A stretch of 64,000 bases of DNA, taken from Propioniciclava flava. GTDB lineage: Bacteria > Actinomycetota > Actinomycetes > Propionibacteriales > Propionibacteriaceae. A program made the translations under genes and the position numbers. Numbering within the stretch: position 1 is the first letter of the stretch; the number at the start of each line of letters is the position of its first letter. Positions 3,832 to 41,386 of the stretch are shown here, in pieces. Location: the NCBI RefSeq assembly GCF_004126535.1, contig NZ_PPCV01000008.1, positions 62,001 through 126,000 of the forward strand, read 5' to 3'. Under the pieces are notes generated by a model. It did not search any database and was not told the DNA's origin. It was given only the letters and a program-made list of their open reading frames with translations.

Positions 3832-5457
<1,626 letters not shown>

Positions 5458-23124: not shown

Positions 23125-24252
23125 TCACCGCCCCGATTGGTGCGTTTCCCTGGGGAGGGTGAGTCGCAGGGTGGCGCCGGTGCCCTCCCCGTCGCTGGTG
23201 GCGGTGAGGCTGCCCCCGTGGGCTTCGGCGAGTGCTTTGGCGATGGTGAGCCCGATGCCGGATCCGCCCTTGTCGGCCTCCCTGGCGGCGTCGCCGCGGT
23301 AGAAGCGCTCGAAGATGTGCGCGAGTTGTTCGGCGGTCATGCCTTGGCCTGTGTCGGCGACGCTGATGGTCACGGCGTCCGGGGTCGAGGTTGACGTCAC
23401 GTCGACTCGTCTCCCCTGGGGGGTGTGTCGGAGGGCGTTGGTGAGCAGGTTGCCGAGGATCTGGGCGACGCGCTGGGGGTCGGCTCGGACCGGCACGTCG
23501 TCGACTCGGACGGTGAGGGTGACGCCTTTGGTGTCGTAGGCGTGCCTGGCCTGACGGATCGCCGGCTCGACCAGATCGGTGAGCGGTTGCACGCTGGTCT
23601 GGAGTTCGATGCGTCCTTCTTCGGCTCGGGACACCTCGTCGAGGTCGCGGGCGAGCCGAGTGAGGCGTTGGGCTTGTTGCTCGACGACGGCTTGGGTGTT
23701 GTCGTCCCAGGTGAGGACACCGTCGGCGATCCCTTCGAGGTGGGCGTTGAGGGTGGCGATGGGGGTACGCATTTCGTGGGCCAGGTCGGACAGGAGGCGC
23801 CGGCGGGTGTTCTCGACGTCGCCGAGGCGGTCGGCCATGGTGTTGAACGTGTCGCCCAGGGTGCTCAACTCGGGGCCGCCGCCCGTGACGGTGACCCGGG
23901 CGTCGTGGTCGCCACGGCTGAGCCGGCCGGCCGCCTGGGTCAGGAGCTCGACGGGATGGCCGATGCGGCGGGTCAGGTACCACGAGATCCCGAGGGAGGC
24001 GGCGAGCGCGACCAGCAGCCCGACGGTGAGGGAGATCATGCTGGCGTCGGCGAAGGCGCGTTCGATGTGGACGATCTCGGGAGAGTCGGGCGGGTGGCCC
24101 GTGTCCAGGAGGTGGGCGTGGAACAGCGGTGGCCCGATGATCGCGGCGGTCAGGCCGGCGCTGGCCACGATGGCGAACAGGACGATGGCTTGGGCGACGA
24201 ACAGCTTGGTGCCGAGCCGCCACGCTGCGATCGCCTCAAGCAGGCGGGTCAC
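23125..24252 (-). CDS. two-component sensor histidine kinase
   Basis: 375 residues from GTG 24252, overlapping the regulator's TGA by 4 bases (GTGA). Two membrane helices (about 14-35 and 75-95) enclose a short extracellular loop with His and Asp residues. Then come a HAMP domain (about 95-150), the H-box LLSDLAHEMRTPIATL with the phosphorylated His, the N-box LGNLLTNALRHTP, and ATP-lid motifs SVADTGQGM and GGSGIGLTIA. It probably senses extracytoplasmic copper, as judged from the genes it adjoins, and phosphorylates the partner regulator. Confidence 0.93.
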   Translation of the reverse strand: MTRLLEAIAAWRLGTKLFVAQAIVLFAIVASAGLTAAIIGPPLFHAHLLDTGHPPDSPEIVHIERAFADASMISLTVGLLVALAASLGISWYLTRRIGHPVELLTQAAGRLSRGDHDARVTVTGGGPELSTLGDTFNTMADRLGDVENTRRRLLSDLAHEMRTPIATLNAHLEGIADGVLTWDDNTQAVVEQQAQRLTRLARDLDEVSRAEEGRIELQTSVQPLTDLVEPAIRQARHAYDTKGVTLTVRVDDVPVRADPQRVAQILGNLLTNALRHTPQGRRVDVTSTSTPDAVTISVADTGQGMTAEQLAHIFERFYRGDAAREADKGGSGIGLTIAKALAEAHGGSLTATSDGEGTGATLRLTLPRETHQSGR

Positions 24253-24962
24253 CCTCGTCCCATCCGGTAGCCGACGCCGCGGATGGTGGTGATGTAGCGC
24301 GGTTCGGTCGGGTCGTCGTCGAGTTTCTTGCGGAGGTTGGCGACGTGGACGTCCACGACGTGTTCGTCGCCGACCCACGCGGTGTCCCACACGGCGTCGA
24401 TCAGTTGGCGGCGGCTGAGCGCCAAGCGGGGTTGGGCGGACAGGACGTCGAGGATGTCGAACTCGGTGCGGGTGAGGGCGACGGGGTGGTCGCCGATCCA
24501 CACTTCGTGGCCGGCGGCGTCGATGCGCAGGTCGCCGAACACACGCTGATCCTCCACCGCGGGGGCGGCGGCGGGTGGGCGGCGGGGGCGCCGCAGTACG
24601 GTCTGGACGCGGGCGACGAGTTCGCGGTTGCTGAACGGCTTGGTGAGGTAGTCGTCGGCCCCCACGGACAATCCGATGAGCCGGTCGACCTCGTCGCCGC
24701 GAGCAGTCAGGATCAGGATGTAGCAGTCGGAAAAGGTGCGGATCTGGCGGCACACCTCGATGCCGTCGAGGCCGGGCAGCCCGAGGTCGAGCACGATGAC
24801 GTCGGGGTCCTCGGCCCTGGCCTGGTCGAGGGCCTCGGGGCCGGTGTGGGCCTGGCTGACCTGGTGGCCCGCGCGGGTGAGGTAGGACGCGATGACGGCG
24901 GCGAGTGCGCGTTCGTCATCGACGACCAGCACCTTGGTCGGCAGTGCACCTTCGCTGTTCAT
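24249..24962 (-). CDS. OmpR/PhoB-family response regulator
   Basis: 237 residues. The receiver domain (about 8-120) has VLVVDDE, the phospho-acceptor Asp in DVIVLDLGLPGLDG, Thr in LILTARG and Lys in DYLTKPF. The winged-helix effector domain (about 140-235) has TRTEFDILDVL and VDVHVANLRKKL, with RYITTIRGVGYRM at the end. OmpR/PhoB proteins bind direct repeats spaced by one helical turn, and an 11-bp direct repeat recurs through the copper genes and also lies 62-78 bases upstream of this gene. I infer it is the regulator of the island. Confidence 0.94.
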   Translation of the reverse strand: MNSEGALPTKVLVVDDERALAAVIASYLTRAGHQVSQAHTGPEALDQARAEDPDVIVLDLGLPGLDGIEVCRQIRTFSDCYILILTARGDEVDRLIGLSVGADDYLTKPFSNRELVARVQTVLRRPRRPPAAAPAVEDQRVFGDLRIDAAGHEVWIGDHPVALTRTEFDILDVLSAQPRLALSRRQLIDAVWDTAWVGDEHVVDVHVANLRKKLDDDPTEPRYITTIRGVGYRMGRG

Positions 24963-25023
24963 GTCAGCCAGTATGGCCGCGGCCGGCGCGCCGGCGGTCG
25001 GCGGGGCCGGGCTCTCGCGCGGG

Positions 25024-25040
25024 TCTTGATGCGATCTTGA
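25024..25040. promoter_or_regulatory. 11-bp-period direct repeat (putative regulator box)
   Basis: TCTTGA at 25024 and TCTTGA at 25035, both half-sites perfect. It lies upstream of the response-regulator gene, in the 517-base divergent gap before the oxidase operon. It would allow autoregulation. Apart from this and the next box, the gap shows no feature I recognise. Confidence 0.7.
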
Positions 25041-25395
25041 GAAGGTCCCGGTCGGACGATGTGGCAGCGCCGGGCGCTGTGTCCAGCCGGTGTTCGAGCC
25101 AGCGCTGGAGGGACGCCGTTCTCTCGACCGCGCCGTGGAACCGTACGGCGCCTCCTATCGGGGAGGGACTTCGAGGCGGGATTGCGACCCCTTCGATTTG
25201 CGATTGGGTGCCGAGCGCGGCTGGGGTGTCAGGCGGGACCTGCATGGACGAGTGAGGTGAACGCCGTGCAGCTGGTTGATGGCCGCATCGGTAGGCGGGT
25301 GGGCTCGACGAGCTTGTCGACGGCCGACAAGGCCGTCGCAGCCTCGCCCAGCCGGCGTTGGCAGGGTTCGCTGGGCGACATCACCAGGTGGTCCG

Positions 25396-25413
25396 ATCTT
25401 GACCGAACCTGAA
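25396..25413 (+). promoter_or_regulatory. imperfect copy of the 11-bp direct repeat
   Basis: ATCTTGA at 25396 is followed by ACCTGA at 25407, a weaker second half-site. It lies 67 bases before the start of the small membrane protein/oxidase operon. Confidence 0.55.
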
Positions 25414-25479: not shown

Positions 25480-25719
25480 ATGGGCTGGGAGATGTGGGTC
25501 CTCATGCTCGTCGGCATGGCCGGCTTCTGGGCAGTGGTCCTGTTGGGCATCCGCGCGCTGTTCCTGGCGGGCGGGAACACGCCTGAGCCGCGATTCCGCG
25601 ATGCACCCGAGAACGACGCCACCGCCGGGCGCTCGCAGCCTCGGGCTTCGGCCGAGCCGCCGGCCCGGACCGACTCCTCCTCAACGTCTCGAATAGCACC
25701 CATCGAAAGGCACCCATGA
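25480..25719 (+). CDS. small single-helix membrane protein of the copper operon
   Basis: 79 residues from ATG 25480, preceded by a GGAGAGGGGAG stretch. One hydrophobic helix (about 4-28) is followed by a polar tail. The opening MGWEMWVLMLVGMAGFW, with Met and Trp, resembles the short membrane proteins with SHOCT-like tails often found in copper clusters. Its TGA overlaps the oxidase ATG (ATGA), implying coupled translation. Confidence 0.65.
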   Translation: MGWEMWVLMLVGMAGFWAVVLLGIRALFLAGGNTPEPRFRDAPENDATAGRSQPRASAEPPARTDSSSTSRIAPIERHP

Positions 25720-27212
25720 CTGGCATGTCCCGACGCACGCTCCTGCTCGGCGGACTCGGCCTCGGCGCCGCCGCCCTGACGGGCTGCACCTCCGCGCCGG
25801 CCGCCGGCCCCGTCCCCTCCGCGTCTGGCCCGATGCCGACGCTCCCGCCGGCCACCCCGAGACCCGGGCAACGGATCGTCGAGCAGGTCTTGACCGCCAA
25901 GCCTGTGACCCTCGACCTCGGCGGACCCACCGTCCCTACCTGGGCCTACGGCGACACCGCGCCCGGTCCGCTCGTGAGGGCTACCGCGGGTGACTTCCTC
26001 CGGATACGTCTTGACAACCAGTTGCCCGCGGACACGACCATCCACTGGCACGGGATCCGGCTGCACAACAAGGCGGACGGGGTGCCCGGCATGACGCAGG
26101 ACCCGGTCCCGGCCGGCGGGTCGTTCACCTACGAGTTCACCGCGCCGGATCCCGGCACGTACTTCTTCCACCCGCACGTCGGCGTCCAACTCGACCGTGG
26201 CCTGTACGCCCCCCTGATCGTCGACGACCCGAACGAGCCGGGCGCCTACGACGCCGAGTGGGTGGTCGTGCTGGACGACTGGGTCGACGGCACCGGCCGC
26301 ACCCCCGACGACGTCCTCGCGAAGCTGATCGCCGACGGGGGCCCTGCCCCCAGCGGCGGCATGGGTGGGATGGGGGGCATGGACCACGGCGGTCACGGTG
26401 GCGGCAACGCTCCGCAACCGTGGGGCGACGCCGGCGACGTCACCTACCCCTACTTCCTGATCAACGGACGCGTCCCCACCGCACCCGCCACGTTCGAGGC
26501 CAAGCCGGGCCAGCGCGTCAGGATCCGGCTCATCAATGCGGCGTCCGACACGATCTTCACGGTCGCGCTCGGCGGCCACCGCCTGACGGTCACCCACAGC
26601 GACGGCTTCCCCGTGGAACCGCGGGAGGTCGACGCCCTCTACCTCGGCATGGGCGAGCGCTACGACGCCCTCGTCACCCTCGACGACGGCGTGTTCCCCC
26701 TGGTGGCTCGTCCGTTCGGCAAGACCGAGGGCGGCCAGGGCTTGGCCCTGGTCAGGACCGGTTCGGGTCAGGCCCCCGGCCCCGACGTGTCGCCCGCCGA
26801 ACTGGCCGGGCGCATCCTGCTGGCCACCGACCTGCGTCCCCACGAGTCGGTGAGGCTGCCTTCACGATCGCCGGACGCCACCGCGCACATGTCGTTGGAG
26901 GGGTCGATGAGCCCGTACCGGTGGGGCATCAACGGGGCCCCGTTCGGGCAGAACCAGCCGCTCACCGTGCGTGAGGGGCAACGGCTGCGGCTCAACGTGA
27001 TGAACATGACGATGATGACCCACCCCCTGCATCTGCACGGGCACACGTTCGCGCTGCCGACAGGGCTACGGAAGGACACGGTGCTTCTGGCGCCGATGCA
27101 GTCGATGGCGCTCGAGCTGGACGCCGACAACGTCGGTGACTGGATGGTCCACTGCCACAACATCTATCACGCCGAGGCCGGGATGATGATCGGCCTGCTC
27201 TACCGCGGCTGA
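25716..27212 (+). CDS. multicopper oxidase (copper-resistance type), lipid-anchored
   Basis: 498 residues. It oxidises Cu(I) or organic substrates with four copper atoms outside the membrane. The N-terminus combines a twin-arginine-like SRRTLLLGGLG with a lipobox LTGC at about 20-23, so export and lipid anchoring are both suggested. Copper ligands are visible in TTIHWHGI, YFFHPHVG, HPLHLHGHTF and MVHCHNIYHAEAGMM, the full type 1/2/3 set. A Met/His-rich insert (GGMGGMGGMDHGGHGGG, about 210-228) is typical of CueO/CopA-type enzymes. It is the second gene of an operon. Confidence 0.93.
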   Translation: MTGMSRRTLLLGGLGLGAAALTGCTSAPAAGPVPSASGPMPTLPPATPRPGQRIVEQVLTAKPVTLDLGGPTVPTWAYGDTAPGPLVRATAGDFLRIRLDNQLPADTTIHWHGIRLHNKADGVPGMTQDPVPAGGSFTYEFTAPDPGTYFFHPHVGVQLDRGLYAPLIVDDPNEPGAYDAEWVVVLDDWVDGTGRTPDDVLAKLIADGGPAPSGGMGGMGGMDHGGHGGGNAPQPWGDAGDVTYPYFLINGRVPTAPATFEAKPGQRVRIRLINAASDTIFTVALGGHRLTVTHSDGFPVEPREVDALYLGMGERYDALVTLDDGVFPLVARPFGKTEGGQGLALVRTGSGQAPGPDVSPAELAGRILLATDLRPHESVRLPSRSPDATAHMSLEGSMSPYRWGINGAPFGQNQPLTVREGQRLRLNVMNMTMMTHPLHLHGHTFALPTGLRKDTVLLAPMQSMALELDADNVGDWMVHCHNIYHAEAGMMIGLLYRG

Positions 27213-27220
27213 GCGGGAAC

Positions 27221-27237
27221 GTTGACGCGACCTTGAC
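27221..27237 (+). promoter_or_regulatory. 11-bp-period direct repeat (putative regulator box)
   Basis: GTTGAC at 27221 and CTTGAC at 27232. It starts 9 bases after the oxidase stop and ends 80 bases before the next gene. TAACGA about 45 bases downstream could be a -10 element. Confidence 0.6.
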
Positions 27238-27693: not shown

Positions 27694-27723
27694 ATGGCCC
27701 GTCCGCCCTGACAGGAGAATGTG

Positions 27724-30168
27724 ATGAACCTGAACTCCACCGCCGAGTCGGTCGTGCTGCACGTGGGTGGCCTGCACTGGGCCACCACCGCCCACGGCGT
27801 CGAACAGACCCTCCTGACCCGGCCAGGCGTGCTGGCGGTCGACGCGAACGCGATCTCGCAGACGGCGACCGTCACGTTCGACCCGACGCGGACCGACGTC
27901 GCCGAACTTCAGGGCTGGGTGCGCGAGTGTGGCTACCACTGTGCCGGCGAGTCACAGCCCACCCACGTGTGCGTTCCCCGCATCGAACCGGCAGGTCATC
28001 CCGGCGGGCACGCAGCCCCGGACGCCCACGCGCGGCACGGCGGCCCCGGAACCACGGTGCCGCACGGTCATGGGGGGCACGACCAGGCGGCGAGCCACGC
28101 CGCGGGGGTGGTGATCTCGCCGCATGACGCGATGGGTCATGGCGGTCATGGGGGGATGTCGATGGACGCCATGGTCGCCGACATGCGCAACCGGTTCCTG
28201 GTCGCGGCGGTGCTGTCGGTGCCGATCACGTTGTTCTCCCCGATGGGACGCGACATGCTCGGCTTCGGGCTGCCGGCGCCGTTCGGGTTGCGGGACGAGG
28301 TGTTCGCCCTGGTGTTGTCGCTGCCGGTGGTGTTCTACGCGGGCTGGATCTTCTTCGACGGGGCTTTCCGCGCCCTGCGGAACCGGACGCTGGACATGAT
28401 GGTGCTGGTCGCGATCGCGATCGGCGCCGGGTGGCTGTACAGCCTGTACGTCACGCTCACCGGTGGTGGCGAGGTGTTCTTCGAGGCGGCCGCGGTGCTG
28501 ACCACGTTCGTCTTGTTGGGGCACTGGTTCGAGATGCGGGCCCGCGGCGGCGCGAACGACGCCATCCGGGCGTTGCTGGACCTGGCGCCGCCGATGGCGA
28601 CGGTGATTCGTGACGGGGTCGAGGCCGACGTGCCCACCAGCGAGGTGCTGGTCGGCGACCTGGTGCTGGTCCGTCCCGGCGCGAAGGTGCCCGTCGACGG
28701 CGTCGTCCGGGAGGGCCGTTCCGAGGTGGACGAGTCGATGGTGACCGGGGAGTCCTTGCCGGTCGACAAGACGGTCGGTTCAGCGGTGGTGGGGGCGTCG
28801 ATCAACACCACGGGGACGCTGCGGGTGGAGGCCACCAAGGTGGGCGCGGACAGCGCCCTGGCGCAGATCGTCGCGCTGGTGCAGCAGGCGCAGAACTCGA
28901 AGGCCCCCGGCCAGCGGCTCGCGGACCGGGCGGCGTTCTGGCTGGTGCTGGTGGCCATCATCGGAGGAGGGCTCACGTTCGGGGCCTGGCTGCTGGCCGG
29001 CGCGTCGGTCCAGACGGCGATGCTGTTCGCGATCACGGTGGTGGTCATCACCTGCCCCGACGCCCTCGGACTGGCGACGCCGACCGCGATCATGGTCGGC
29101 ACCGGTCTGGGCGCCAAGCGAGGAGTGTTGTTCAAGAACGCCACCGCCCTGGAGACCTCCGCGAAGGTCAACACGGTGGTGATGGACAAGACCGGCACGC
29201 TCACCCGCGGCGAACCCGAGGTGACCCAGGTCATCGCCGTCGGGGGCGACCCCCACCTCGACCTGGTCGCGGCGGTGGAGCGCGAATCCGAACACCCGCT
29301 CGCGGCCGCCGTGGTCACCCATGCCGACGCCCTCGGCGTCGCGACCCGTAAGGCTGCCGAGTTTCGCAACGTGCCCGGCCACGGGGCCACCGCCGTCGTC
29401 GACGGACTGGACGTTGCGGTCGGAAACCGGCGGCTCATGGAGTCCCTCGGTGTCGACCTGTCGGCGGCGGGGCCGATCCGCGAGCGGGTCGCCGCCCAGG
29501 GCCAGACCGCCGTGTTCGCCGCGGTGGACGGCCGCATCGTGGCGGTCATCGGGTTGGCGGACGCCCCCCGCGAGACCTCCGCCCGGGCGGTCGCGGCGTT
29601 GCACGACCAGGGAGTGCAGGTCGTGATGCTGACCGGGGACAATCAGGCGACCGCACAGCGGATCGCCGCCCAGCTGGGGATCGACACGGTGATCGCGGAC
29701 GTGCTGCCCGGCGACAAGGCCGCCCATGTGGCCGATCTACAACGCCAGGGGCGGGTGGTGGCGATGGTCGGTGATGGTGTCAACGACGCCCCTGCTCTGG
29801 CCCAGGCTGACGTGGGGGTCGCGATCGGGGCGGGCACCGATGTGGCGATCGAGACGGCCGACCTGGTCCTCATGCGGTCGGACCCCCTCGACGTGCCGAC
29901 CGCCCTGACCATCGGCCGTGGCACGCTGCGGAAGATGCGGCAGAACCTGGGCTGGGCGGTCGGTTACAACGTGGTCGCCCTGCCGATCGCGGCCGGCGTG
30001 TTTGCCGGCGTCGGGCTGACCCTACGGCCAGAGATCGCTGCGCTGTCGATGTCCGGTTCCAGCCTGATCGTCGCTGTCAACGCCCTGCTGCTGAAGCGGT
30101 TGCGGCTCCCCGACGAGCACCACCGCCGACCAGGCACCCCGGCCGCGCAGGCTGCGTCGGGATCTTGA
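27724..30168 (+). CDS. heavy-metal P1B-type ATPase with CPD membrane motif and cysteine-less HMA domain
   Basis: 814 residues from ATG 27724 (AGGAGA 5 bases upstream). The N-terminal ferredoxin-like HMA domain (about 5-70) has [14 protein letters not shown] where the metal-binding Cys-x-x-Cys would be. A His-rich linker (about 85-145) follows. The ATPase core has [25 protein letters not shown] (CPD in place of CPC), [12 protein letters not shown] with the phosphorylated Asp, SEHPLA and [12 protein letters not shown]. It exports a heavy metal, most likely copper given its neighbours, but the unusual membrane motif could mean another metal or oxidation state. The Ser-stop codons lie within the next regulator box. 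Confidence 0.9.
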
Positions 30169-30190
30169 CGCGACCTTGATCCGATCCTGC
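30163..30190 (+). promoter_or_regulatory. 11-bp-period direct repeat with weak third copy
   Basis: TCTTGA at 30163, CCTTGA at 30174 and a weak TCCTGC at 30185, all 11 bases apart. The first half-site overlaps the upstream ATPase stop (TCT TGA). It ends about 80-90 bases before the second ATPase. Confidence 0.72.
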
Positions 30191-30271
30191 CGATCCGGAC
30201 ACGAGACCCACCTAACCTGACACCAGAAGCGGTACCCCTGGGGGGTATCAGGACAAGGTGAGGTGGTTGTG

Positions 30272-33043
30272 ATGAGTTGGCTCGTCATCGGCGGCGCGGT
30301 GGTCGTCACCGGGTTGTTGTGGTGGTTCTTCTTCGGTCCGAAGCAGGCCGGACAGGTGAGCCTGGAGGACGGCGTCCAGGTGGTGCGGGTCACCGTCGAC
30401 GGTGGCTACAGCCCGGACGTGATCGAGGGCGTCCGCCCGGGCATACCGGTCAGGCTCCTGTTCGACCGGCAGGAGAGCGGTGAGTGCACCTCGCGGGTGG
30501 TCATGCCCGACTTCAAGGTCAACGCAGCGCTGCCGGCGTTCCGGACCACGGCGGTCGAGTTCCTTCCCACCGAAACGGGGGAGTACCGGTTCGCGTGCGG
30601 GATGAACATGGTGTCCGGGGTGATCCGTGTCAGCGGGAACCCCCCGGCCGATACCCAAGGCGGCGGCACCGTGGTGGAGCAGGCCTCCCGGCCGGTGGAC
30701 GGAACGACCGCGGCCGGCGGCACCGCCCCCGACGCGGAGGCGGAGGAGGCTGAGCGTGCCGCCGAAATCCGCGACTTGACCCGCCGCCTGCTGGTGGGTG
30801 CGGTGCTGTCGGCGCCGGTGCTGGTCGCGGTGATGGCGGTGGAGTTGTTCCAGGCGATGTGGGTTCCCGAGTTCCTGATGAACCCGTGGCTACAGCTGGC
30901 GTTGATCGCTCCGGTGATGTTCTACACCGGCTGGCCGATCCACCGCACCGGCTGGAAGGCGCTGTCGCACCGGACCGCCGACATGAACTCGCTGATCACC
31001 TTGGGCACGTTTGCCGCCTTCGGCTACAGCCTGGTGGTCACGTTCCTGCCCTGGCTGCTGCCCGACGCGCTGCGGCACGTCTACTACGAGGCCGTCGGGG
31101 TGATCATCACCCTCATCCTGCTCGGGCGGCTGCTCGAGACGAAAGCGAAGGCCGGCACCGGTGAGGCAATCCGCGCCCTGATCGGGCTGCAGCCCCGCAC
31201 CGCCCGGGTTGAGCGCGACGGTGCCGAACTCGAGGTCGGCGTTGACGAGGTGCGGGTCGGAGACATCGTGCTGATCCGGCCCGGGGAGAAGCTCCCGGTC
31301 GACGGCGAGGTGACCAGCGGCTCCTCCTCGATCGATGAGTCCATGGTGACCGGCGAATCCATGCCGGTGACCAAGTCCGTCGGGGACACCGTGATCGGCG
31401 CCACCATCAACACCACCGGCGCCCTGCGCTACCGCGCCACCAAGGTCGGCGCCGACACGATGCTGGCCCAGATCATCAAGCTGGTCCGCGAAGCCCAAGG
31501 CTCCAAGGCGCCCATCCAGCGGCTCGCCGACCAGGTGTCCAGCTACTTCGTGCCCGCGGTGATCGTGATCGCGGTGTGGACCTTCGTCGCCTGGGTGCTC
31601 GTCGGCCCGCCGCCGGTGTTCATCTTCGCGCTCGTCGCCGCCGTGTCGGTGCTGATCATCGCCTGCCCCTGCGCCCTAGGGCTCGCCACTCCCATGTCGA
31701 TCACCGTCGGCACCGGCAAAGGGGCCGCGCACGGCATCCTGATCCGCTCCGCCGAGGCGCTCGAGACCGCCCACAAGTTGCAGACGATCATCCTCGACAA
31801 GACCGGCACCCTGACCCGCGGCGTCCCGGCCCTCACCGACGTCATCCCCGTGACCGACGGGGGTGAGGACCGCCTCCTGGCCGCTGTCGCCGGGGTCGAG
31901 CGGGCCTCCGAGCACCCGCTGGCGGCCGCGATCGTGGCCGGGGCGACCGAGCGTGGGCTCGCTGTGCCCGAGGTCGACGGGTTCGAGTCCGTCACCGGCC
32001 AAGGGGTGATGGCGCGGGTCGACGGGCGGCGCGTGCTGGTCGGCAATCGCCGGCTGCTGGACGCGTTCGGGGTGGACGCGGCCGTCCTGCTCGCCGCCCA
32101 CGACCGGCTGGCCGCCGAAGGCAAGACCGCGATGCTGGTCGCGGTCGACGGACGCCCCGCCGGCGTGGTGGCCGTGGCCGACACCCTCAAGGAAGGCGCC
32201 CCGGCGGCGGTCGCCGCCCTCCAGGCCCGCGGCATCGAGGTCGTGATGATGACCGGTGACAACCGGCACACCGCCGCCGCGATCGCCCGCCAGGTCGGCA
32301 TCACCCGCGTCGTCGCCGAGGTCATGCCCGACCACAAGGCCGCCGAGGTCCGGCGCCTGCAGGCCGACGGCAAGGTGGTCGGCATGGTCGGCGACGGCAT
32401 CAACGACGCCCCCGCCCTCGCCCAGGCCGACGTCGGGTCGGCGATCGGGACCGGCACCGACGTCGCGATCGAGTCCTCCGACATCACGTTGGTCTCGGGG
32501 GCACTGGTGGGCATAGTGACCGCCGTCGACCTGTCCCGGGCCACCATGCGCAACATCAAGCAGAACCTGGTGTTCGCGTTCCTGTACAACATCCTGGGCA
32601 TCCCGATCGCCGCCGGCGTGCTCTATCCGGCGTTCGGGATCACCCTCAGCCCGATCATCGCCGCCGCCGCGATGGCACTGTCGTCGCTGTCGGTGGTCGC
32701 CAACGCGAACCGGCTCCGCCGGTTCACCCCCCGTCCACTGGCTGCCACCACCCAGGTGGCCGGCGTCGACCCGCTCGTCGAGGTGGGCGGCAGCGTCGAA
32801 GCCTCACACCACACCCAACGAAAGGAAACCACCATGTTCGGCCTGTTCGGCAAGAAGAAGGACACCACCACCGCCAAGGTCGTCGACCCCGTGTGCGGTA
32901 TGAAGATCAACCCCGCTGACGCTGCCGCCACCCGCGACCACGACGGCACCACGATCTACTTCTGCTCCAAGGGCTGCGCCGAAACCTTCGACGCGGACCC
33001 GCACCGTTACGCGCATGGACCCTCCGGCGCCGGCCACCACTGA
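30272..33043 (+). CDS. copper P1B-type ATPase fused to a cupredoxin-like and a YHS domain
   Basis: 923 residues from ATG 30272. Order: an N-terminal helix (2-22) and cupredoxin-like domain (about 30-125, with [10 protein letters not shown] and [12 protein letters not shown] as likely copper ligands); an acidic linker; a CopA-type ATPase core (about 165-820) with [41 protein letters not shown] and [12 protein letters not shown]; then a YHS domain at the C-terminus ([12 protein letters not shown] ... [18 protein letters not shown]). It exports Cu(I). The YHS part begins at an internal ATG with its own ribosome-binding site, so the C-terminal fusion may also be made as a separate protein. csoR overlaps the 3' end. 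Confidence 0.93.
32834..33043 (+). CDS. possible separate YHS-domain protein from an internal start
   Basis: In frame inside the ATPase gene, ATG 32834 is preceded by AAAGGA at 10 bases, a strong site for this genome. It would yield a 69-residue YHS protein (FGLFGKKKD then [10 protein letters not shown]). The 30-residue stretch before it looks like former intergenic sequence read through. This supports a recent loss of the ATPase stop or dual expression. Confidence 0.5.
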
Positions 33044-34204: not shown

Positions 34205-34221
34205 TCTTGACGTGATCTTGG
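34205..34221 (+). promoter_or_regulatory. 11-bp-period direct repeat (putative regulator box)
   Basis: TCTTGA at 34205 and TCTTGG at 34216, 89 bases before lgt. With the preceding box it forms a pair 54 bases apart in the divergent promoter region. Confidence 0.65.
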
Positions 34222-34309: not shown

Positions 34310-35083
34310 GTGTGGCCGGTGTTGTTCTCAGTGTTCGGAATCCAGATCCAGTCGTACGGGGTGAGCAAGGCCCTCGCGGCGCTGGTCGCCGCGTGGCTGC
34401 TCGGCCGGGCCTTCCGCCGGCTCGGCTTCCCGGTGGAGCAGGCGCACTCGCTGGTTCTGTGGGCGGCGGTGTGGGGGTTCGTGGCCGCCAAGGTGTACTT
34501 CCTGATCGACAACCGCGCCCAGTTCAGCTGGCACCTGCTCGGTAGCTCGGGGTTCGTCTGGTACGGCGGGCTGATCGGCGGCATCCTCACCGTCGTCGTC
34601 CTGACCCGCCGCTACCGGCTGCCTCTGGCCAGCGTGGCCGGCGCGACCGCGATCCCCCTGTCGGTGGCGTACGGGATCGGCAGGATCGGCTGCTTCCTGG
34701 CGGGCGATGGCACCTACGGCACGCCGACCGACCTGCCCTGGGGGATGGCCTTCCCGAACGGCGTCGTGCCGGTGACCGTCCCGGTTCACCCCGCCCAGTT
34801 GTACGAGGCTGCCGGCGCGTTCGCGATCGCCGCCGTGCTCTGGCTGCTGGCCCGCCGCTGGCTGCCGCTGTCAGTGTTCGGCGGCTACCTCGCCCTCAGC
34901 GGGGCCGCGCGACTGCTGGTCGAGATCGTCCGGGTCAACGACCGCGTCCTGCTCGGCCTCACCGAAGCGCAACTGTTCGGCGTGCTCAGCATCATCGCCG
35001 GCGTCATGCTGATCGCGGTCGACCGCCGGCAGCGGACCCCCGAGCCCGCCGCCGCACTCCCGGTCGAGCCGGCACGCGTGTGA
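34310..35083 (+). CDS. lgt: prolipoprotein diacylglyceryl transferase, divergent copper-island form
   Basis: 257 residues from GTG 34310, with about seven membrane helices. It attaches diacylglycerol to the lipobox cysteine of prelipoproteins. Conserved features are FVWYGGLIGGI, the SVAYGIGRIGCFLAGDG segment and PVHPAQLYEA. In housekeeping Lgt the third motif is GRIGNFINGE, so the usual Asn is Cys here and the usual Glu is Asp. That marks it as a specialised paralogue. It is followed 28 bases later by lnt and is surrounded by candidate lipoproteins (the oxidase and a DUF305 protein). Confidence 0.9.
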   Translation: MWPVLFSVFGIQIQSYGVSKALAALVAAWLLGRAFRRLGFPVEQAHSLVLWAAVWGFVAAKVYFLIDNRAQFSWHLLGSSGFVWYGGLIGGILTVVVLTRRYRLPLASVAGATAIPLSVAYGIGRIGCFLAGDGTYGTPTDLPWGMAFPNGVVPVTVPVHPAQLYEAAGAFAIAAVLWLLARRWLPLSVFGGYLALSGAARLLVEIVRVNDRVLLGLTEAQLFGVLSIIAGVMLIAVDRRQRTPEPAAALPVEPARV

Positions 35084-35111: not shown

Positions 35112-36695
35112 ATGACGACCCTGCGGACCGCACGGGACGCGGCGTGGGCCCGGCAGCGGTGGCCGCGTCACTGGGCACCGCTGGTCGCGGCGGGGGCGGC
35201 GGGTGCGGCGGGGTTGATGACGGGCACGGGTGTCGCACCGCTGGGCTGGTGGCTCGCCCCACCGCTTGGCGTCATGGTGCTCACCGTCGCCGTGCACCGG
35301 AGCACGTCGCTCCGGGCTGCGGCTGCCTTGGGGCTGGCCTACGGCCTTGGCCTGTCCGGACCAACCCTGGGCTGGATGGCCGCCATCCACCCGGCCGCCC
35401 TGGTAGGGCTGCTGTTGCTCTCCTCCAGCTGGTCTGCGGTCACGGCCGTGCTGGTCCGCGCCGCCGGCCGGAGCCGCGGCTGGCCCGTACTGGCAGCCCT
35501 GGCCTGGTTGGGCGTGGAGTTCCTCGCCGCCCGCGTCCCGTTCGGCGGCTTCGGCTGGCTGCGGCTCGGCTACACCCAGATCGACTCGCCCCTGGCCGGG
35601 CTGTACCCCTTCATCGGGGTGGCCGGCGTCAGCTTCTCCGTGGTCCTCACGGGACAGCTGGGCGCCTGGATCCTGCTGGGGCCCTCCAGGCGGCGCCTGG
35701 CCTGGTCCGCGGCGTGGCTGGTCGTCGTCACCGGCGCCGCCACCGCCGGTACCGTGACCCCGACCCCGCCCCCTGACGGCGTCGTCACCGCGGGCTGGGT
35801 CCAGGGTGGCGCACCCGGCGGCGGCGTCTACGGCCTCGGCCCGCCTCGCACCATCACCACCAACCAAGCACGGGCCACCCGCGAACTGGCCGCCGCGATC
35901 GACGCCGGCCGCCTGCCGGCCCCCGACTTCGTCGTGTGGCCCGAGAACGCCACCGACCTCGACCCCGACACCGACCAGCGCACCGGCCAGCTCGTCGAGC
36001 AGTCCGTCGCGGCCGTGGGGCGTCCCGTGCTGGTCGGCGCCATCCTCGACGGTCCCGGACCCCGCCAGCGGCGAACCGCCGCCCAATGGCGCGAACCCGA
36101 CGGCCGGATCGGGCCCACCTATCAGAAACGCTCGATCGTCCCGTTCGGCGAATGGATCCCGTTCCGAGACGTGCTGCTGCCGCTGATCCCTGCCCTGCGC
36201 TACGTCGGCGCCCAGTCCGTGGCCGGCACTGATCCGGGTCTTCTCGACGTACAGCTCCCCGACGGACGCTCGATCACCCTTGGCGTGCTGGCCTGCTTCG
36301 ACGTCGCCTTCGACCCCGTCGTGCACGACCTCGCCACCGCGCAGGCCGTCATCGTGCAAAGCAACAACGCCATGTACCAGGGCACCGCCCAGATCGAGCA
36401 ACAGTTCGCCATCACCCGGGCCCGGGCAGCGGAACTGCGCCGCGACACCCTCGTCGTCACCACCAGCGGCATCACCGGACTCATCGATCCCACCGGTCGG
36501 GTCACCATGAAGGTCACCGAACCGGGTCCCGCCGTTGGAGTGGTGCAGCTCGGCCTGCGCACCGGGACCACCACCGCCAGCTGGCTCGCCACCCCCCTGG
36601 AGGTCACCGCGACCGTGGCCGCCGCGCTCTGGATCACGGCGCTCACGCTGACGCCTTCGCCGCGCAGGCGCTTTCATCCCTTGGTCGGATCTTGA
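35112..36695 (+). CDS. lnt: apolipoprotein N-acyltransferase
   Basis: 527 residues. An N-terminal set of membrane helices (about 20-215) is followed by a nitrilase-like domain. The catalytic triad is visible: Glu in VVWPENATD, Lys in YQKRSIVPFGE and Cys in LACFDVAFD. It adds the third acyl chain to lipoproteins after Lgt and signal peptidase II. Its TGA lies inside a regulator box for the following gene. Finding lgt and lnt together in a copper island suggests dedicated maturation of copper-binding lipoproteins. Confidence 0.92.
   Translation: MTTLRTARDAAWARQRWPRHWAPLVAAGAAGAAGLMTGTGVAPLGWWLAPPLGVMVLTVAVHRSTSLRAAAALGLAYGLGLSGPTLGWMAAIHPAALVGLLLLSSSWSAVTAVLVRAAGRSRGWPVLAALAWLGVEFLAARVPFGGFGWLRLGYTQIDSPLAGLYPFIGVAGVSFSVVLTGQLGAWILLGPSRRRLAWSAAWLVVVTGAATAGTVTPTPPPDGVVTAGWVQGGAPGGGVYGLGPPRTITTNQARATRELAAAIDAGRLPAPDFVVWPENATDLDPDTDQRTGQLVEQSVAAVGRPVLVGAILDGPGPRQRRTAAQWREPDGRIGPTYQKRSIVPFGEWIPFRDVLLPLIPALRYVGAQSVAGTDPGLLDVQLPDGRSITLGVLACFDVAFDPVVHDLATAQAVIVQSNNAMYQGTAQIEQQFAITRARAAELRRDTLVVTTSGITGLIDPTGRVTMKVTEPGPAVGVVQLGLRTGTTTASWLATPLEVTATVAAALWITALTLTPSPRRRFHPLVGS
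36679..36695 (+). promoter_or_regulatory. 11-bp-period direct repeat overlapping the lnt stop
   Basis: CCTTGG at 36679 and TCTTGA at 36690; the second half-site is the Ser-stop (TCT TGA) of lnt. It lies 46 bases before the next gene. Confidence 0.65.
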
Positions 36696-36741: not shown

Positions 36742-37203
36742 ATGGACACCAGCCTGACCGACCCCCCGGCATCTACTCTGGCCGCCGACAGCGTCACCGC
36801 GGCCACCCCGTGGCGGGCCCGCGCCGCCGGGGCGTGGGCGGCCACCCGAGCCACGTTCGGGGCCCTGCTCGGGCTCGCACCGCATGTCCTGCACCACGTC
36901 GGGTTCCTCGCCGGCGCCGCCCTCCTGACCGGCGTCGTGGGCAACACGGTGCTCTACGCAGCCGGGATGCTGCTCAGCATCCCGATGCTCAACCGCCTCC
37001 GGAAACGGTTCGGCACCTGGAAGGCGCCAGCGCTGGGGGCGATCGCCTTCACCAGCCTGTTCACACTGTCCGCGTTCGTGATCGGGCCCGCCCTCAACCC
37101 GACACCCGTCGCACCCCAGCCCGCGGCGACCACTGGCCCCACCGGCCAGCCGCTGGAGGAACACGACGGGCACCACCCAGACACGAACCAGACCAGATCT
37201 TGA
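36742..37203 (+). CDS. copper-island membrane protein of unknown function
   Basis: 153 residues. A polar N-terminus (1-38) precedes two or three membrane helices (about 45-85 and 98-116), with LGLAPHVLHHVGFLAG and RKRFGTWKAPALG between or next to them. The tail, HDGHHPD, is His-rich. The same layout recurs in proteins annotated only as hypothetical beside copper ATPases. The Ser-stop lies in the next regulator box. Confidence 0.6.
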   Translation: MDTSLTDPPASTLAADSVTAATPWRARAAGAWAATRATFGALLGLAPHVLHHVGFLAGAALLTGVVGNTVLYAAGMLLSIPMLNRLRKRFGTWKAPALGAIAFTSLFTLSAFVIGPALNPTPVAPQPAATTGPTGQPLEEHDGHHPDTNQTRS

Positions 37204-37214
37204 CCCGGCCTTGA
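37198..37214 (+). promoter_or_regulatory. 11-bp-period direct repeat overlapping a stop codon
   Basis: TCTTGA at 37198 and CCTTGA at 37209. The first half-site contains the TCT TGA end of the preceding gene. It ends 76 bases before the His-rich ORF at 37290, a distance close to that seen for other members. Confidence 0.72.
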
Positions 37215-37289: not shown

Positions 37290-37376
37290 ATGAGCGGGGG
37301 TCACCATCACCACCACGGGCATGATGGGGTGGACGCCGACGTGCGCGTCTCCCGGACGGCCCGCTCGCGACACTAG
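37290..37376 (+). CDS. 28-residue His-rich ORF in front of the YibE/F gene
   Basis: MSGGHHHHHGHDGVDADV followed by ten more residues and TAG. The TAG shares a base with the GTG of the next gene (TAGTG), a coupling overlap. In relatives a His-rich segment of this kind starts the YibE/F protein itself, so this may be its N-terminus split off by a 1-base shift, or a real metal-sensing leader peptide. Confidence 0.45.
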   Translation: MSGGHHHHHGHDGVDADVRVSRTARSRH

Positions 37377-38566
37377 TGCTGTTGGCCGTCGTGGCGGCGA
37401 TCACCATGGCGGGCTTGGTGTGGTTGTGGCCCACGGAACGGGTGTTGCCGGAGGGTTCGGTGCTGACGACCGAGGGGATCGTGCCCGTGCGCGGGCAGAT
37501 CACCGCGATCGAGCCGTGCCCGGCGGCCCCGGACGCCCCGCCGACCGGGCCGGACGCCGGCGTCCAACACGCCTGCCTCGTCGCCCAGGTCGAACTCGAC
37601 CGCCGGGCGGGCGAACTCGTGGGCGTGGAGCTGGTGGGAGTGACCGCGTGGAGCGGCCTGCAGCCCGGCGACGGCGTCCACGTGGCCGAGGTCGGCGCCA
37701 CCGAGGGGGTGCCCGGGGGATGGTCGTTGATCACGGTTGACCGGATCCCGGTCCTGGCGATCTTCACGATCTTGTTCGTGGTGGCGGTGCTGGTCGTCGC
37801 CGGCCGCAAGGGCTTCTTCGGGCTGCTGGGGCTGGTGGTGTCCGGGGTGGTGCTGTTCGGGTTCATGATCCCGGCCCTCACGTCGGGACAGCCGGCTGTG
37901 TGGGTTGCGATCGTGGGGTCGACCGCCATCATGTTCGTGGTGCTCTATCTGGCCCATGGGGTGTCGTGGCGGACCACGTCAGCGTTCGTCGGCACCTGGT
38001 TGAGCCTGTTGGTGACCACCGGCCTCGGCGCGCTGGGCGTCTCGATGGCCCGGCTGAGCGGCATCTCCAGTGAGGAGACCCTCGCGCTGACCAACCTGCT
38101 CGGTGACCTCGACTTCCCTGACATCCTCACCTGTGGTCTGGTGATCGCGGACCTGGGCGTGCTGAACGACGTGACGATCACGCAGGCGTCGTCGGTGTGG
38201 GAGGTCCGGGCCGCCGGGCCGCACCTGAGCCGGGGGCAGTTGTTCGCCTCGGGCATGCGGATCGGGCGTGACCACATCGCTTCGACGATCTACACCATCG
38301 TGTTCGCGTACGCCGGCGCCGCGTTGTCGCTGTTGCTCCTGCTGTCGTTGTACGAGCAGCCGCTGAACCTGCTGCTGTCGACCGAGCAGTTCTCCGAGGA
38401 GATCATCCGCACCCTGGGCAGCGGCATCGGGCTGGTGTTGAGCGTGCCCCTGACCACCGGGGTGGCCGCTCTCACCGTCGCCGGCGCGGCTGGGGCGGCT
38501 CGCCGATCGGGTAGAGGAGCCGACGACCCCGAGCGGGCCGCCCCGGGCCCCCGGCGAGCGATCTAG
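37376..38566 (+). CDS. YibE/F-family membrane protein
   Basis: 396 residues from GTG 37376. One N-terminal helix, an extracytoplasmic domain (about 22-120), then about seven membrane helices. Family signatures are LLGDLDFPDILTCGLVIADL and GVLNDVTITQASSVWEVR, with GMRIGRDHIASTIYTIVFAY. YibE/F proteins are found near metal-resistance genes; their transport role is unknown. The N-terminal His-rich part lies in another frame just upstream. Confidence 0.85.
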   Translation: MLLAVVAAITMAGLVWLWPTERVLPEGSVLTTEGIVPVRGQITAIEPCPAAPDAPPTGPDAGVQHACLVAQVELDRRAGELVGVELVGVTAWSGLQPGDGVHVAEVGATEGVPGGWSLITVDRIPVLAIFTILFVVAVLVVAGRKGFFGLLGLVVSGVVLFGFMIPALTSGQPAVWVAIVGSTAIMFVVLYLAHGVSWRTTSAFVGTWLSLLVTTGLGALGVSMARLSGISSEETLALTNLLGDLDFPDILTCGLVIADLGVLNDVTITQASSVWEVRAAGPHLSRGQLFASGMRIGRDHIASTIYTIVFAYAGAALSLLLLLSLYEQPLNLLLSTEQFSEEIIRTLGSGIGLVLSVPLTTGVAALTVAGAAGAARRSGRGADDPERAAPGPRRAI

Positions 38567-38585: not shown

Positions 38586-38602
38586 TCGTTGCGCAGCCTT
38601 GA
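38586..38602 (+). promoter_or_regulatory. weak copy of the 11-bp direct repeat
   Basis: TCGTTG at 38586 and CCTTGA at 38597. Only the second half-site is good. It lies 65 bases before the DUF305 lipoprotein, at the same distance as better copies before other genes. Confidence 0.35.
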
Positions 38603-38666: not shown

Positions 38667-39287
38667 ATGAGCGCAACACCGAAGTGGGTCACGATCGTGA
38701 TGGGCGCCGCGGTAGCGGCGACCATGCTGGGGGCGTGCTCGGCCACGCCGGCGGCCACTCCCAGCCCAGCCTTGACGACAGCAGGGTCAGCGAACCCGAG
38801 CAATGCGGCCGCCCACAACGAGGCAGACACGGCGTTCGCGCAGATGATGATCGTGCACCACCAGGGTGCGATCGAGATGGCCGACCTCGCCGCCCAGCAG
38901 GCCCAGAGCGCGGACGTCCAGGCCCTGGCCGAACGCATCTCGGCGGCTCAGGGCCCCGAGATCGAGACCATGAGCGGCTGGCTTTCGGCGTGGGGCGAGG
39001 ATCCGATGCCGGCCGACAGCGACATGGCCGGGATGGACCACTCGGGCATGGACATGGACGGCAGAAGCCAGGAAGAGGTGATGGCCGAGCTGCGAGGCTT
39101 ATCGGGCGCCGACTTCGACCGGCAGTTTCTCACCTCGATGATCGCCCACCATCAAGGAGCGATCGAGATGGCCCAGACCCAACTCGCCGACGGCCGGGAC
39201 CCGCAAGCCATCGAGCTGGCGCAGAAGATCATCGCCGACCAGGAAGCAGAGATCGAGGAGATGCAGGGATTGCTCGCATCAGCGTAG
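38667..39287 (+). CDS. DUF305 lipoprotein, two repeats
   Basis: 206 residues from ATG 38667 with AGGAG 6 bases upstream. A lipobox, MLGAC (Cys at about 24), indicates lipid anchoring. Two DUF305 units follow: FAQMMIVHHQGAIEMADLAA and FLTSMIAHHQGAIEMAQTQL, each with the His-His pair. A Met/His loop (MAGMDHSGMDMDG) lies between them. Likely an extracytoplasmic copper buffer and a substrate for the island's Lgt and Lnt. A perfect hairpin terminator follows. Confidence 0.92.
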   Translation: MSATPKWVTIVMGAAVAATMLGACSATPAATPSPALTTAGSANPSNAAAHNEADTAFAQMMIVHHQGAIEMADLAAQQAQSADVQALAERISAAQGPEIETMSGWLSAWGEDPMPADSDMAGMDHSGMDMDGRSQEEVMAELRGLSGADFDRQFLTSMIAHHQGAIEMAQTQLADGRDPQAIELAQKIIADQEAEIEEMQGLLASA

Positions 39288-39300
39288 GAACCCGACCGTG

Positions 39301-39333: not shown

Positions 39334-39373
39334 CCTCGGACGACCGCACATGCTGTTCTCAGGCCAGACGAGA

Positions 39374-39390
39374 TCTTGAGGCTGCCTTGA
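39374..39390 (+). promoter_or_regulatory. 11-bp-period direct repeat (putative regulator box)
   Basis: TCTTGA at 39374 and CCTTGA at 39385. Only 27 bases separate it from ATG 39418, against 46-93 elsewhere, so the downstream gene may actually start later (ATG 39490). Confidence 0.7.
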
Positions 39391-39417
39391 CCGGTCCCCC
39401 CGGTGAGGGGAACCACC

Positions 39418-39741
39418 ATGGTCGTCGTGAACACGACGAACAACACTTGGGCCCGGGTCGGCCACCAGACCGACCGGGCTGCGTCGCCCATGGTCACCGT
39501 GGTAACCGCAGAGGCCTGCCACCTCTGTGAGGACGCCCACACGGAACTCCTGAACCGCGCGACCCAAGGGCAGCTACTGCTCGACCAGGTGGACGCCGAA
39601 TCACCGCAGGGCCAGAAGCTCCTCCATCAACACCGCCCGGCCATGTTCCCCCTCGTGCTGCTCGACGGCGCGTTCCTCAGCGCCGGACGCCTCCCGCGCC
39701 GCAAGCTCGACCGCGCCCTCGCGGCACGGAAGGCCTCGTGA
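39418..39741 (+). CDS. thioredoxin/glutaredoxin-like CxxC protein
   Basis: 107 residues from ATG 39418 (GAGGGG upstream), or 83 from ATG 39490. The core VTVVTAEACHLCEDAHTELL has the redox Cys-His-Leu-Cys after a beta strand, and MFPLVLLDGAFL supplies the cis-Pro strand-like region. It probably passes electrons to or from a thiol partner. Its TGA overlaps the ATG of the CcdA-like gene, so they are coupled. Confidence 0.82.
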   Translation: MVVVNTTNNTWARVGHQTDRAASPMVTVVTAEACHLCEDAHTELLNRATQGQLLLDQVDAESPQGQKLLHQHRPAMFPLVLLDGAFLSAGRLPRRKLDRALAARKAS

Positions 39742-40718
39742 TGGGCTCGGAACTCCTGGCAACTGGCAGCATCCTGGCCGCCTTCTTCGCGGGCACGGTG
39801 GCACTGTTCGCACCCTGCTGCATCGTCTTCCTCGCCCCGTCGTACCTGGCTGCTGCGGTCAAGAACAACCGGTGGCGCCTCCTCCCGCTGACCTTCGTCT
39901 TCGCGGCAGGCCTGGCGCTCGTCCTGGTCCCGATCACGCTCGGGGTGAGTCTGCTGGCCGGTGCGATCGCCAAGTACCACGTGATCCTGTACTGGGCCGG
40001 TGGCCTGCTCATGATCGGCCTCGGCCTGCTGGCCCTCAGCGGCCGGATGTGGTCGATGCCGTCGATGCTGCGCGCCCCCGACACCACCCGCGGCGACACT
40101 GCGACCTTCTTCAGCCTCGGCGTGTTCTCCGGGATCGCGTCCAGCTGCTGCGCCCCCGTCCTGGCAGGCGTGATGACCCTGTCCGCTCTCTCCGGCAACC
40201 CGCTCGGCGGCCTGGTCCTCGGGCTGGCGTTCGTGTTCGGCATGGTCATCCCGCTGCTCGTCATGGCACTCGTGTGGGACGCCGCCCGCCTCAACGAACG
40301 ACGCTGGGGCCGGGCGAAGCCCATCAGGGTGACCGTCGCCGGCCGCACGCTGCACACCAACAGCGTGAACCTGCTCGTCGCGGTCGCCTTCGTCATCATG
40401 GGCGTCTGGGTCATCACCCTCGCTGGCACGGCGACGATGACCGGGTCGGGCACCTGGGTGCAGCTCGCCGCCGGCGACTGGGTCACCCAAGCCGCGCAGG
40501 CCGTCCTCGGCTGGCTTGCCCCGGTCCCTGAGCCCGTCCTCGGCCTCGCCTTGTTGGGGCTGGCCGGGGTGTTCGTGTGGACCACGCTCCGCGACCGCCG
40601 CCGCGACGCGCGCCAGGGAGCCGAAGAGCACGCCGACGCCGACCCCACCCTGCCGCACTGCCACAGCACGACCGACGCCGACCACCCGATCGCCGACCAC
40701 GACACCGCGAGGAACTGA
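39741..40718 (+). CDS. CcdA/DsbD-family thiol-disulfide membrane transporter
   Basis: 325 residues from ATG 39741, with about seven membrane helices. Paired Cys residues lie in VALFAPCCIVFLAPSYLAAA and SGIASSCCAPVLAGVM, the two intramembrane redox centres of this family. It carries reducing equivalents across the membrane. The C-terminal tail is polar and His/Asp-rich (HADADPTLPHCHS). It sits between a cytoplasmic thioredoxin-like protein and a membrane-anchored peroxiredoxin-like protein, which suggests a relay. Confidence 0.88.
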   Translation: MGSELLATGSILAAFFAGTVALFAPCCIVFLAPSYLAAAVKNNRWRLLPLTFVFAAGLALVLVPITLGVSLLAGAIAKYHVILYWAGGLLMIGLGLLALSGRMWSMPSMLRAPDTTRGDTATFFSLGVFSGIASSCCAPVLAGVMTLSALSGNPLGGLVLGLAFVFGMVIPLLVMALVWDAARLNERRWGRAKPIRVTVAGRTLHTNSVNLLVAVAFVIMGVWVITLAGTATMTGSGTWVQLAAGDWVTQAAQAVLGWLAPVPEPVLGLALLGLAGVFVWTTLRDRRRDARQGAEEHADADPTLPHCHSTTDADHPIADHDTARN

Positions 40719-40723
40719 CGACC

Positions 40724-41344
40724 ATGCCCAGCAACCAGCGCACCACCATCAGCCGCCGGCAACAGCTCCGAGACCAACGGGCACGAGAATCAGCCAAGGA
40801 GACCAAGCGTCGCCGCCTGTTCAGAATCGCGACCGGGCTGCTGACCACGCTCATCGTCGCCCTCGTGGGGTTCGGCCTGTGGAGCGCCCGCCCCGTCGAG
40901 GGTGGCCCGTCCGGCCAGGCGCCCGCGTTCACCCTGCCGACGACCGCGGGCACCACCGTGTCCCTGGCCGACTACCGCGGCCAGCCCGTGATCCTCTACT
41001 TCAACGAGGGCGCCGGCTGCGGCTCCTGCACCCAGCAGATGGCCCTCATCGAGCAGGAGCCGGGCTTCGCCGCAGCCGGCATCACCGTGCTCCCCATCGT
41101 GATGAACACCGCCGCCCAGATCCAACCCGACCTGGACCGCTTCGGCGTCACCACCCCCTACCTGCTCGACGACGGCACGGTCTCGAAGGCCTACGACACC
41201 CTCGACAAGGGCATGCACCCAGGCCTGCCCGGGCACGGCTTCGTCCTGATCGACGCCGACGGCAACCAGGTCTGGGAGGGAAACTACCCCTCCATGTGGC
41301 TCGACCCCGCCGAACTCCTGCACGAAGCCACCAGCCGCCTGTGA
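40724..41344 (+). CDS. membrane-anchored peroxiredoxin/thioredoxin-fold protein
   Basis: 206 residues. A basic N-terminus and one membrane helix (about 36-54) are followed by an AhpC/TSA-like domain facing outward: APAFTLPTTAGTTVSLADYR, then FNEGAGCGSCTQQMALIE with Cys-Gly-Ser-Cys, and GFVLIDADGNQVWEGNY. It begins 5 bases after the CcdA-like gene, so it probably receives electrons from it and reduces extracytoplasmic thiols or peroxides. Confidence 0.85.
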   Translation: MPSNQRTTISRRQQLRDQRARESAKETKRRRLFRIATGLLTTLIVALVGFGLWSARPVEGGPSGQAPAFTLPTTAGTTVSLADYRGQPVILYFNEGAGCGSCTQQMALIEQEPGFAAAGITVLPIVMNTAAQIQPDLDRFGVTTPYLLDDGTVSKAYDTLDKGMHPGLPGHGFVLIDADGNQVWEGNYPSMWLDPAELLHEATSRL

Positions 41345-41369
41345 ACGGGCGCGAACGCTGCGCCGCCGA

Positions 41370-41386
41370 CCTTGTAGCGATCTTGA
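41370..41386 (+). promoter_or_regulatory. 11-bp-period direct repeat (putative regulator box)
   Basis: CCTTGT at 41370 and TCTTGA at 41381, 73 bases before the SHOCT-domain gene. Confidence 0.65.

Follow-up and report, generated by a model that had tools for sequence, protein, structure and literature searches.

The copper-resistance island of Propioniciclava flava raises the question of which regulator reads a short direct repeat, TCTTGA-N5-YCTTGA, that recurs along it, and how far the resulting regulon extends. The window analysed was a stretch of 64,000 nucleotides (nt) from assembly GCF_004126535.1 (contig NZ_PPCV01000008.1, contig 25 of the assembly, positions 62001-126000), for which a first-pass annotation had noted the repeat and proposed a single regulon, including lgt and lnt, under the OmpR/PhoB-type regulator encoded at 24249. 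The results indicate that the repeats are very probably operators of this regulator, the island's own CopR, which would activate a self-contained regulon.

With up to two mismatches allowed, the repeat was matched 16 times in the window compared with a mean of 2.82 and a maximum of 7 in 100 shuffles. Exact matches are located at 25024, 30163, 37198 and 39374, matches with one mismatch at 34151 and 34205, and matches with two at 25397, 27220, 36679 and 41370. The annotated positions were reproduced within one base (25396 became 25397 and 27221 became 27220), and all eleven named boxes are on the plus strand as had been claimed. The eleventh, at 38586, was described from the outset as weak; it has three mismatches and is absent from the two-mismatch scan. 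Further matches within the island are at 25013 (plus strand, overlapping the box at 25024) and, weakly, on the minus strand at 38568, 39152 and 41431. The statement that the other 47 kb of the window is free of the motif holds for the exact form; at two mismatches it does not, with matches at 5452 (plus) and 50264 (minus), which is approximately the level expected by chance. The period of 11 bases was borne out by CTTGA pairs (at most one mismatch) in the 18.1 kb from 24001 to 42100, where 9 pairs at this spacing were found on the plus strand and 2 on the minus strand, against 0-2 at every other spacing from 6 to 24 bp. The remainder of the window contained 2 pairs at 11 bp on the plus strand and none on the minus strand. 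Most boxes precede the next start codon by 46-88 nt; that at 37198 is 75 nt before a His-rich mini open reading frame (ORF) and 161 nt before the YibE/F-like ORF, and after that at 39374 the start codon is ambiguous.

A scan of the host genome (3,007,896 bases, 26 contigs), named in the first-pass annotation as a check, showed that the exact form occurs four times and that all four copies are inside the copper island. The two-mismatch form gave 158 matches (83 + 75) compared with 107 (53 + 54) for a reversed control pattern; since this is only 1.5-fold the control, the strict form alone carries the specific signal. One mismatch was found at 16 places, three of them in the island (34151 and 34205, and on the minus strand 39152, which is within a DUF305 gene) and 13 elsewhere. 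Each of the 13 outlying places is in a reading frame that stays open through the site for 645 nt or more (stretches of approximately 1 kb), and a -10 core at the spacing described below was present at one, with about 0.6 expected. These places were therefore rejected as regulon members; they look like chance occurrences, and the regulon does not appear to extend beyond the island.

In order to identify the probable binder, the product of copR (24249..24962, minus strand) was compared with known regulators. It has a receiver domain (PF00072) and a Trans_reg_C domain (PF00486), both above cut-off, as is typical of the OmpR/PhoB family, and the gene adjoins copS (23125..24282, minus strand), predicted to encode the sensor histidine kinase; 25 kinase families were among the matches listed for CopS, all below their cut-offs. 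Assignment of CopR to the proteobacterial CusR/CopR/SilR family (TIGR01387) was rejected on the basis of a score of 167.6 bits against a cut-off of 279.2. CopR of the Corynebacterium plasmid pLEW279b is 59% identical over 229 amino acids, and the stretch that we take, from PhoB, to be the recognition helix is near-identical (DVHVANLRKKL in the window, DVHIGNLRRKL in pLEW279b).

The copper region of C. glutamicum, to which that of pLEW279b has been likened (97% at the nucleotide level; PMC3140484), contains a site TGAAGATTTgaTGAAGATTT at -59 to -78 of copR that is bound by CopR in gel shifts, and binding is abolished by three-base changes within the repeat but not by changes to the linker or flanks (PMC3140484). 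Loss of copRS lowers expression of the divergent operon 50-100-fold and that of genes downstream of copS approximately 2-fold (PMC3140484, PMC3353115). The reverse complement of the C. glutamicum site reads TCTTCA-N5-TCTTCA, while the window has TCTTGA-N5-TCTTGA 62-78 nt before copR. Plasmid pLEW279b carries TGAAGATTTGATGAAGG in the sense of copR, which shows that the orientation of the box agrees with that in the window. As described in the available portions of the two reports, the C. glutamicum CopRS system and the island share two half-sites 11 bp apart, their position and orientation upstream of copR, an OmpR-family regulator with an adjacent kinase (the identity of 59% having been measured on the related plasmid protein), and target genes for a multicopper oxidase, a P-type ATPase and TlpA-like proteins. 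The box is a variant of the gel-shift-proven CopR box TGAAGATTTnnTGAAGATTT, and on this likeness window CopR is expected to bind it. The first-pass view that the motif was not known from copper regulators is corrected accordingly. The two boxes differ by one base per half-site (YCTTGA in the window, TCTTCA in C. glutamicum), and the regulon described in these portions has a single genomic site whereas the island has about ten, 4 exact and 7 imperfect. We take the latter as a difference in extent and not as one that defines the family. The island regulon also adds lgt, lnt, YibE/F and DUF305 genes to the C. glutamicum set. A literature search that included TGAAGATTT together with CopR, and that covered a minority of subscription papers, returned no title or abstract opening on the variant box or on lgt-lnt under CopR.

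The association of the box with copR was evaluated in other genomes and plasmids. A search of the 200 nt preceding copR, with one mismatch allowed at most, located a box at 30 of 44 loci, 45-88 nt before the projected start and in every case antisense to copR, compared with 0-10 loci for other periods in the same region; without the four near-identical loci the count was 26 of 40. From one listing of 80 loci, L001, L002, L003 and L005 were scanned. Within the window's own family, 29 copR loci contained 27 exact CTTSA pairs at period 11 (5 of them in L095-L098, loci that nearly duplicate the window) and 1 at the other 12 periods summed. In 347 kb around copR from 12 genomes, exact CTTGA pairs numbered 27 at period 11, 17 in four islands near-identical to the window's and 10 in diverged genomes, against 2 at other periods. 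At thirteen named plasmid copR loci, exact CTTSA pairs at period 11 numbered 19, compared with 0-5 for each of the other periods from 7 to 19. Family genomes encoding a CopR at least 68% identical contained a mean of 2.96 exact boxes (n = 24), or 2.47 (n = 19) when near-identical islands were omitted, compared with 1.31 in genomes without a CopR match at 1e-75 (n = 111); one genome, G251, has a CopR 69% identical and no exact box. Since the enrichment is limited to genomes with a close CopR, the box marks this CopR and not every copper response regulator, and its count was rejected as a marker for CopR in general.

The position of the box relative to the promoter was examined with 52 non-redundant boxes, comprising all 11 sites named in the window, whether exact or imperfect, and 41 others, which were exact CTTSA pairs from 50 loci or stretches (L081-L093, L099-L123 and L132-L143, with the close islands L094-L098 and L124-L131 set aside). 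Any sites that agreed at more than 52 of 70 bases were counted as one, and some intragenic boxes are included. In 40 of the 52, a -10 core, NANNNT, starts at an offset of exactly 33 or 34 nt from the end of the box, compared with 4.9% at random positions of the same loci, and neighbouring offsets from 28 to 40 had it in 0-1 boxes each. Only the proportion of 40 in 52 is relied on, since a binomial treatment assumes independent boxes. This fixed spacing between the box and a -10-like element is a new observation. A further half-site-like signal was detected at +33 (z = 6.2, 6 of 52 sites above 4 bits) and another at +22 (z = 3.0, 2 of 52); the off-phase position +53 scored z = 3.5, so that only +33 stands out and a longer array is a suggestion.

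Seven of the eleven window boxes have the -10 core at this spacing. Box 1 (25024..25040, exact) is 61 nt before copR, antisense to it, in a shared divergent region. Box 2 (25397..25413, two mismatches) is 66 nt before a small membrane ORF at 25480 and the multicopper oxidase gene, with CACAGT at +33; box 3 (27220..27236, variant) precedes ORF 27317 and the gene for CopA1, with CAGCCT at +33; and box 4 (30163..30179, exact) precedes that for CopA2, with TAACCT at +33. Boxes 5a (34151..34167) and 5b (34205..34221) are both before lgt-lnt; the former is also approximately 88 nt upstream of a divergent DUF305/CopM-like gene, and the latter has GACAGT at +33. Box 6 (36679..36695) precedes ORF 36742, with CACCCT at +33, and box 7 (37198..37214, exact) precedes the YibE/F-like gene, with GATCGT at +33. 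The doubtful box 8 (38586..38602, TCGTTGCGCAGCCTTGA) is before a DUF305 lipoprotein gene, and box 9 (39374..39390, exact) before glutaredoxin-like, CcdA and redoxin genes. Box 10 (41370..41386), with CACCCT at +34, precedes the SHOCT and HMA ORFs. All are on the plus strand.

The same targets recur in relatives. In G268, G336 and G219, where lgt is 71-75% identical, a box with one mismatch, TCTTGACCAAACCTTGN, faces lgt from approximately 90-110 nt upstream, and the Cellulomonas plasmid p110066 has a box directed towards lgt at a distance of 134 nt. A glutaredoxin/CcdA operon is faced by a box in G172, G198, G336, G219, G196 and G133, and CopA2 in G336, G219 (one mismatch) and G196. The near-identical islands of G235, G223, G241 and G095 each keep the nine boxes visible to a one-mismatch scan, and alignment showed box 2 kept in all four; these islands are too alike at lgt and CopA2 to inform on conservation of the box. 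At the divergent copR region the 17-bp box 1 is identical in all five close islands, the window included, while its flanking sequence varies. G223, G241 and G095 have approximately 720-750 bp extra between box 1 and the next box, which is absent from the window and G235; in G241 this stretch (L128:10576-11643) encodes a protein with a Peptidase_M23 domain; the corresponding window region is 25041-25396. The window and G235 probably lost the stretch through deletion, and retention of box 1 despite the loss suggests that it still serves copR. Co-conservation of the box with copR, the same targets in diverged genomes and the match to the C. glutamicum site together support what had been proposed at the outset, namely a one-turn repeat of the OmpR type, read by the regulator at 24249, in one regulon that would include lgt and lnt.

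Several results weigh against this assignment. No box with at most one mismatch was found near copR at 14 of the 44 loci, one of which offered only 12 nt: L001 (Janibacter), L002 (Mangrovihabitans), L084 (Kocuria), L086 (Cryobacterium), L088 (C. faecale), L090 (Streptomyces), L099, L103, L106, L118, L119, L121, L122 and L123. At the 13 plasmid loci the one-mismatch form was not enriched (50 against 19-68 at other periods), and 39 genomes with a more distant CopR had a mean of 1.46 exact boxes compared with 1.31 for those without a close CopR. Four window boxes, including the exact boxes at 25024 and 39374, lack the -10 core at +33/34, and the fixed distance observed here contrasts with the C. 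glutamicum site, given in the available part of that report as -266 to -285 of the divergent start. Many of the loci are related, so that the counts are not independent, and several also contain CsoR-type regulators, for which reason co-occurrence alone cannot name the binder.

An alternative is that a regulator other than CopR occupies the boxes, either a second response regulator or a sigma factor reading TTGAC as a -35 element. The second half-site is often TTGAC and so resembles a -35, and a CsoR-family regulator is encoded in the island. The usual distance from -35 to -10 is approximately 17 bp, however, and the -10 core begins 33-34 nt past the box, far beyond that distance from the second half-site; the reading of this half-site as a plain -35 was rejected for this reason. 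The box moreover consists of two elements 11 bp apart, the CsoR-type site has another, palindromic form, and the proven C. glutamicum site, as published in the portion available, is nearly the same box, so that binding by another factor is considered improbable. That the repeats are a product of chance or of codon usage in GC-rich DNA can be dismissed with near certainty: the genome does contain 158 loose matches, 1.5-fold the control, but the exact form, the single 11-bp period, the uniform orientation and the phasing of the -10 are unexpected from composition.

A distinct possibility, although not the favoured one, is that the array is partial, with the exact and widely conserved boxes at copR, CopA2, lgt and the redox genes serving as operators and 38586, perhaps also 27220, 36679 and 41370, being decayed or fortuitous. 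The copy at 38586, with its three mismatches and no -10 core, fits this account, as does the loss of the -10 core on the side of box 1 that faces the peptidase gene of relatives. Against it, 27220, 36679, 37198 and 41370 have a -10 core at the right spacing; they also recur in all four close islands, to which little weight is given because the islands are too alike.

The reading in which the boxes are operators of CopR leads to the following mechanism. Extracytoplasmic copper would activate the kinase CopS, and phosphorylated CopR would bind the two YCTTGA half-sites one helical turn apart. Held 33-34 bp upstream of a weak -10, the bound protein would recruit RNA polymerase, acting as an activator and not as a repressor. 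One box per unit would serve copRS, the multicopper oxidase, the two P1B ATPases and the thiol-redox operon, and further units would comprise DUF305 and YibE/F genes, small membrane proteins and the second lgt and lnt. Most likely, phosphorylated CopR thereby activates approximately ten transcription units, the second lgt and lnt among them. The second Lgt and Lnt would probably act in the lipidation of lipoproteins that handle copper, for example the oxidase and DUF305 proteins.

Profile searches identified the genes of the island as follows, all on the plus strand unless stated. The multicopper oxidase (25716..27212) has a lipobox, LTGC, read by eye. It is followed by CopA1 (27721..30168), a P1B ATPase with an HMA domain, and CopA2 (30263..33043), a P1B ATPase with an N-terminal cupredoxin-like domain and a C-terminal YHS domain, a make-up that to our knowledge seems unusual for this class. 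The DUF305, CopM-like metallochaperone gene (33461..34063) is on the minus strand. Above cut-off, lgt and lnt are each present twice in the genome, and the island accounts for one copy of either gene. The island lgt, encoding prolipoprotein diacylglyceryl transferase (34310..35083), matched PF01790 with 158.5 bits and fell short of the cut-off in each of the 7 NCBIfam lgt models listed; lnt, encoding apolipoprotein N-acyltransferase (35112..36695), matched TIGR00546 with 185.1 bits (cut-off 132.9). The YibE/F-family membrane protein (37376..38566) matched PF07907. The His-rich mini-ORF that precedes it (MSGGHHHHHGHDG..., 37290-37376) has a TAG stop overlapping the GTG start of the YibE/F ORF, an overlap that recurs in G235, G223 and G241; in G095 the stop is missing and the frame difference is kept. 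Downstream are the DUF305 lipoprotein gene (38667..39287; lipobox LGAC, read by eye), the glutaredoxin-like, CcdA/DsbD-like and redoxin genes (39403..41344; glutaredoxin match below the Pfam cut-off), and a SHOCT-like and an HMA-like ORF (41460..42053), both slightly below Pfam cut-offs.

A second regulatory layer, distinct from the repeated box, is predicted at CopA2. Just past the CopA2 -10 is the one exact CsoR-type site of the window, TACCCCTGGGGGGTAT (30233..30248, plus strand), and a gene for a CsoR/RicR-family metal-sensitive repressor (33015..33359, plus strand; PF02583, below the RicR cut-off) overlaps the end of CopA2. The same order of box, -10 and TACCCC..GGGGTA palindrome (TACCCCTAGGGGGTA) was found in G336 and G196. 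The palindrome resembles CsoR/RicR operators and is presumably bound by the CsoR-family protein, so that CopA2 is probably under dual control, with CopR as activator and CsoR as repressor.

The island was likely acquired recently by horizontal transfer, as indicated by an identical CopR in another genus together with a patchy distribution within the window's own genus. In G235 (L095, L124, L125), of another genus of the family, CopR is 100% identical to that of the window and the island proteins are 92-100% identical. Among 13 genomes from the genus of the window, 5 lack a CopR match at 1e-75. Plasmids of Cellulomonas, Cryobacterium, Tsukamurella, C. halotolerans and Rhodococcus (L082, L086, L089, L091, L093) have lgt and/or lnt near copper genes, from which it follows that the link is wider than the window's family.

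The lit2-lgt2 operon of Listeria monocytogenes and Enterococcus is reported to be copper-induced (PMC8275575, PMC7387801). In the island, as in that operon, a second lgt and a lipoprotein acyl-modifying enzyme are adjacent to copper-resistance genes on a mobile element, copper induction being predicted in the present case. The available portions of the two reports concern Firmicutes and lit2, which yields the lyso-form, and mention no CopR box; the island is actinobacterial and has lnt, for N-acylation. By analogy, the island looks like an actinobacterial counterpart of lit2-lgt2 with lnt in place of lit2. We tentatively extend this proposal, at somewhat short of an even chance, to one in which CopR reads an array of up to four half-sites, two strong and distal and the others weak towards the -35, ending approximately one turn before the -10. 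In this proposal the array was multiplied promoter by promoter into a complete island regulon that re-tools lipoprotein acylation on copper, as an independent counterpart of the Firmicute lit2-lgt2.

Overall, the findings would turn a regulator with one known site into a readable promoter code, consisting of the box, 33-34 bp and a -10, from which copper-induced genes of actinobacterial genomes and plasmids can be predicted, and would place the second Lgt and Lnt under the control of this code. Should the acylation of lipoproteins have come under copper control independently in actinobacteria and in Firmicutes, such tailoring would be a general part of the defence against copper.

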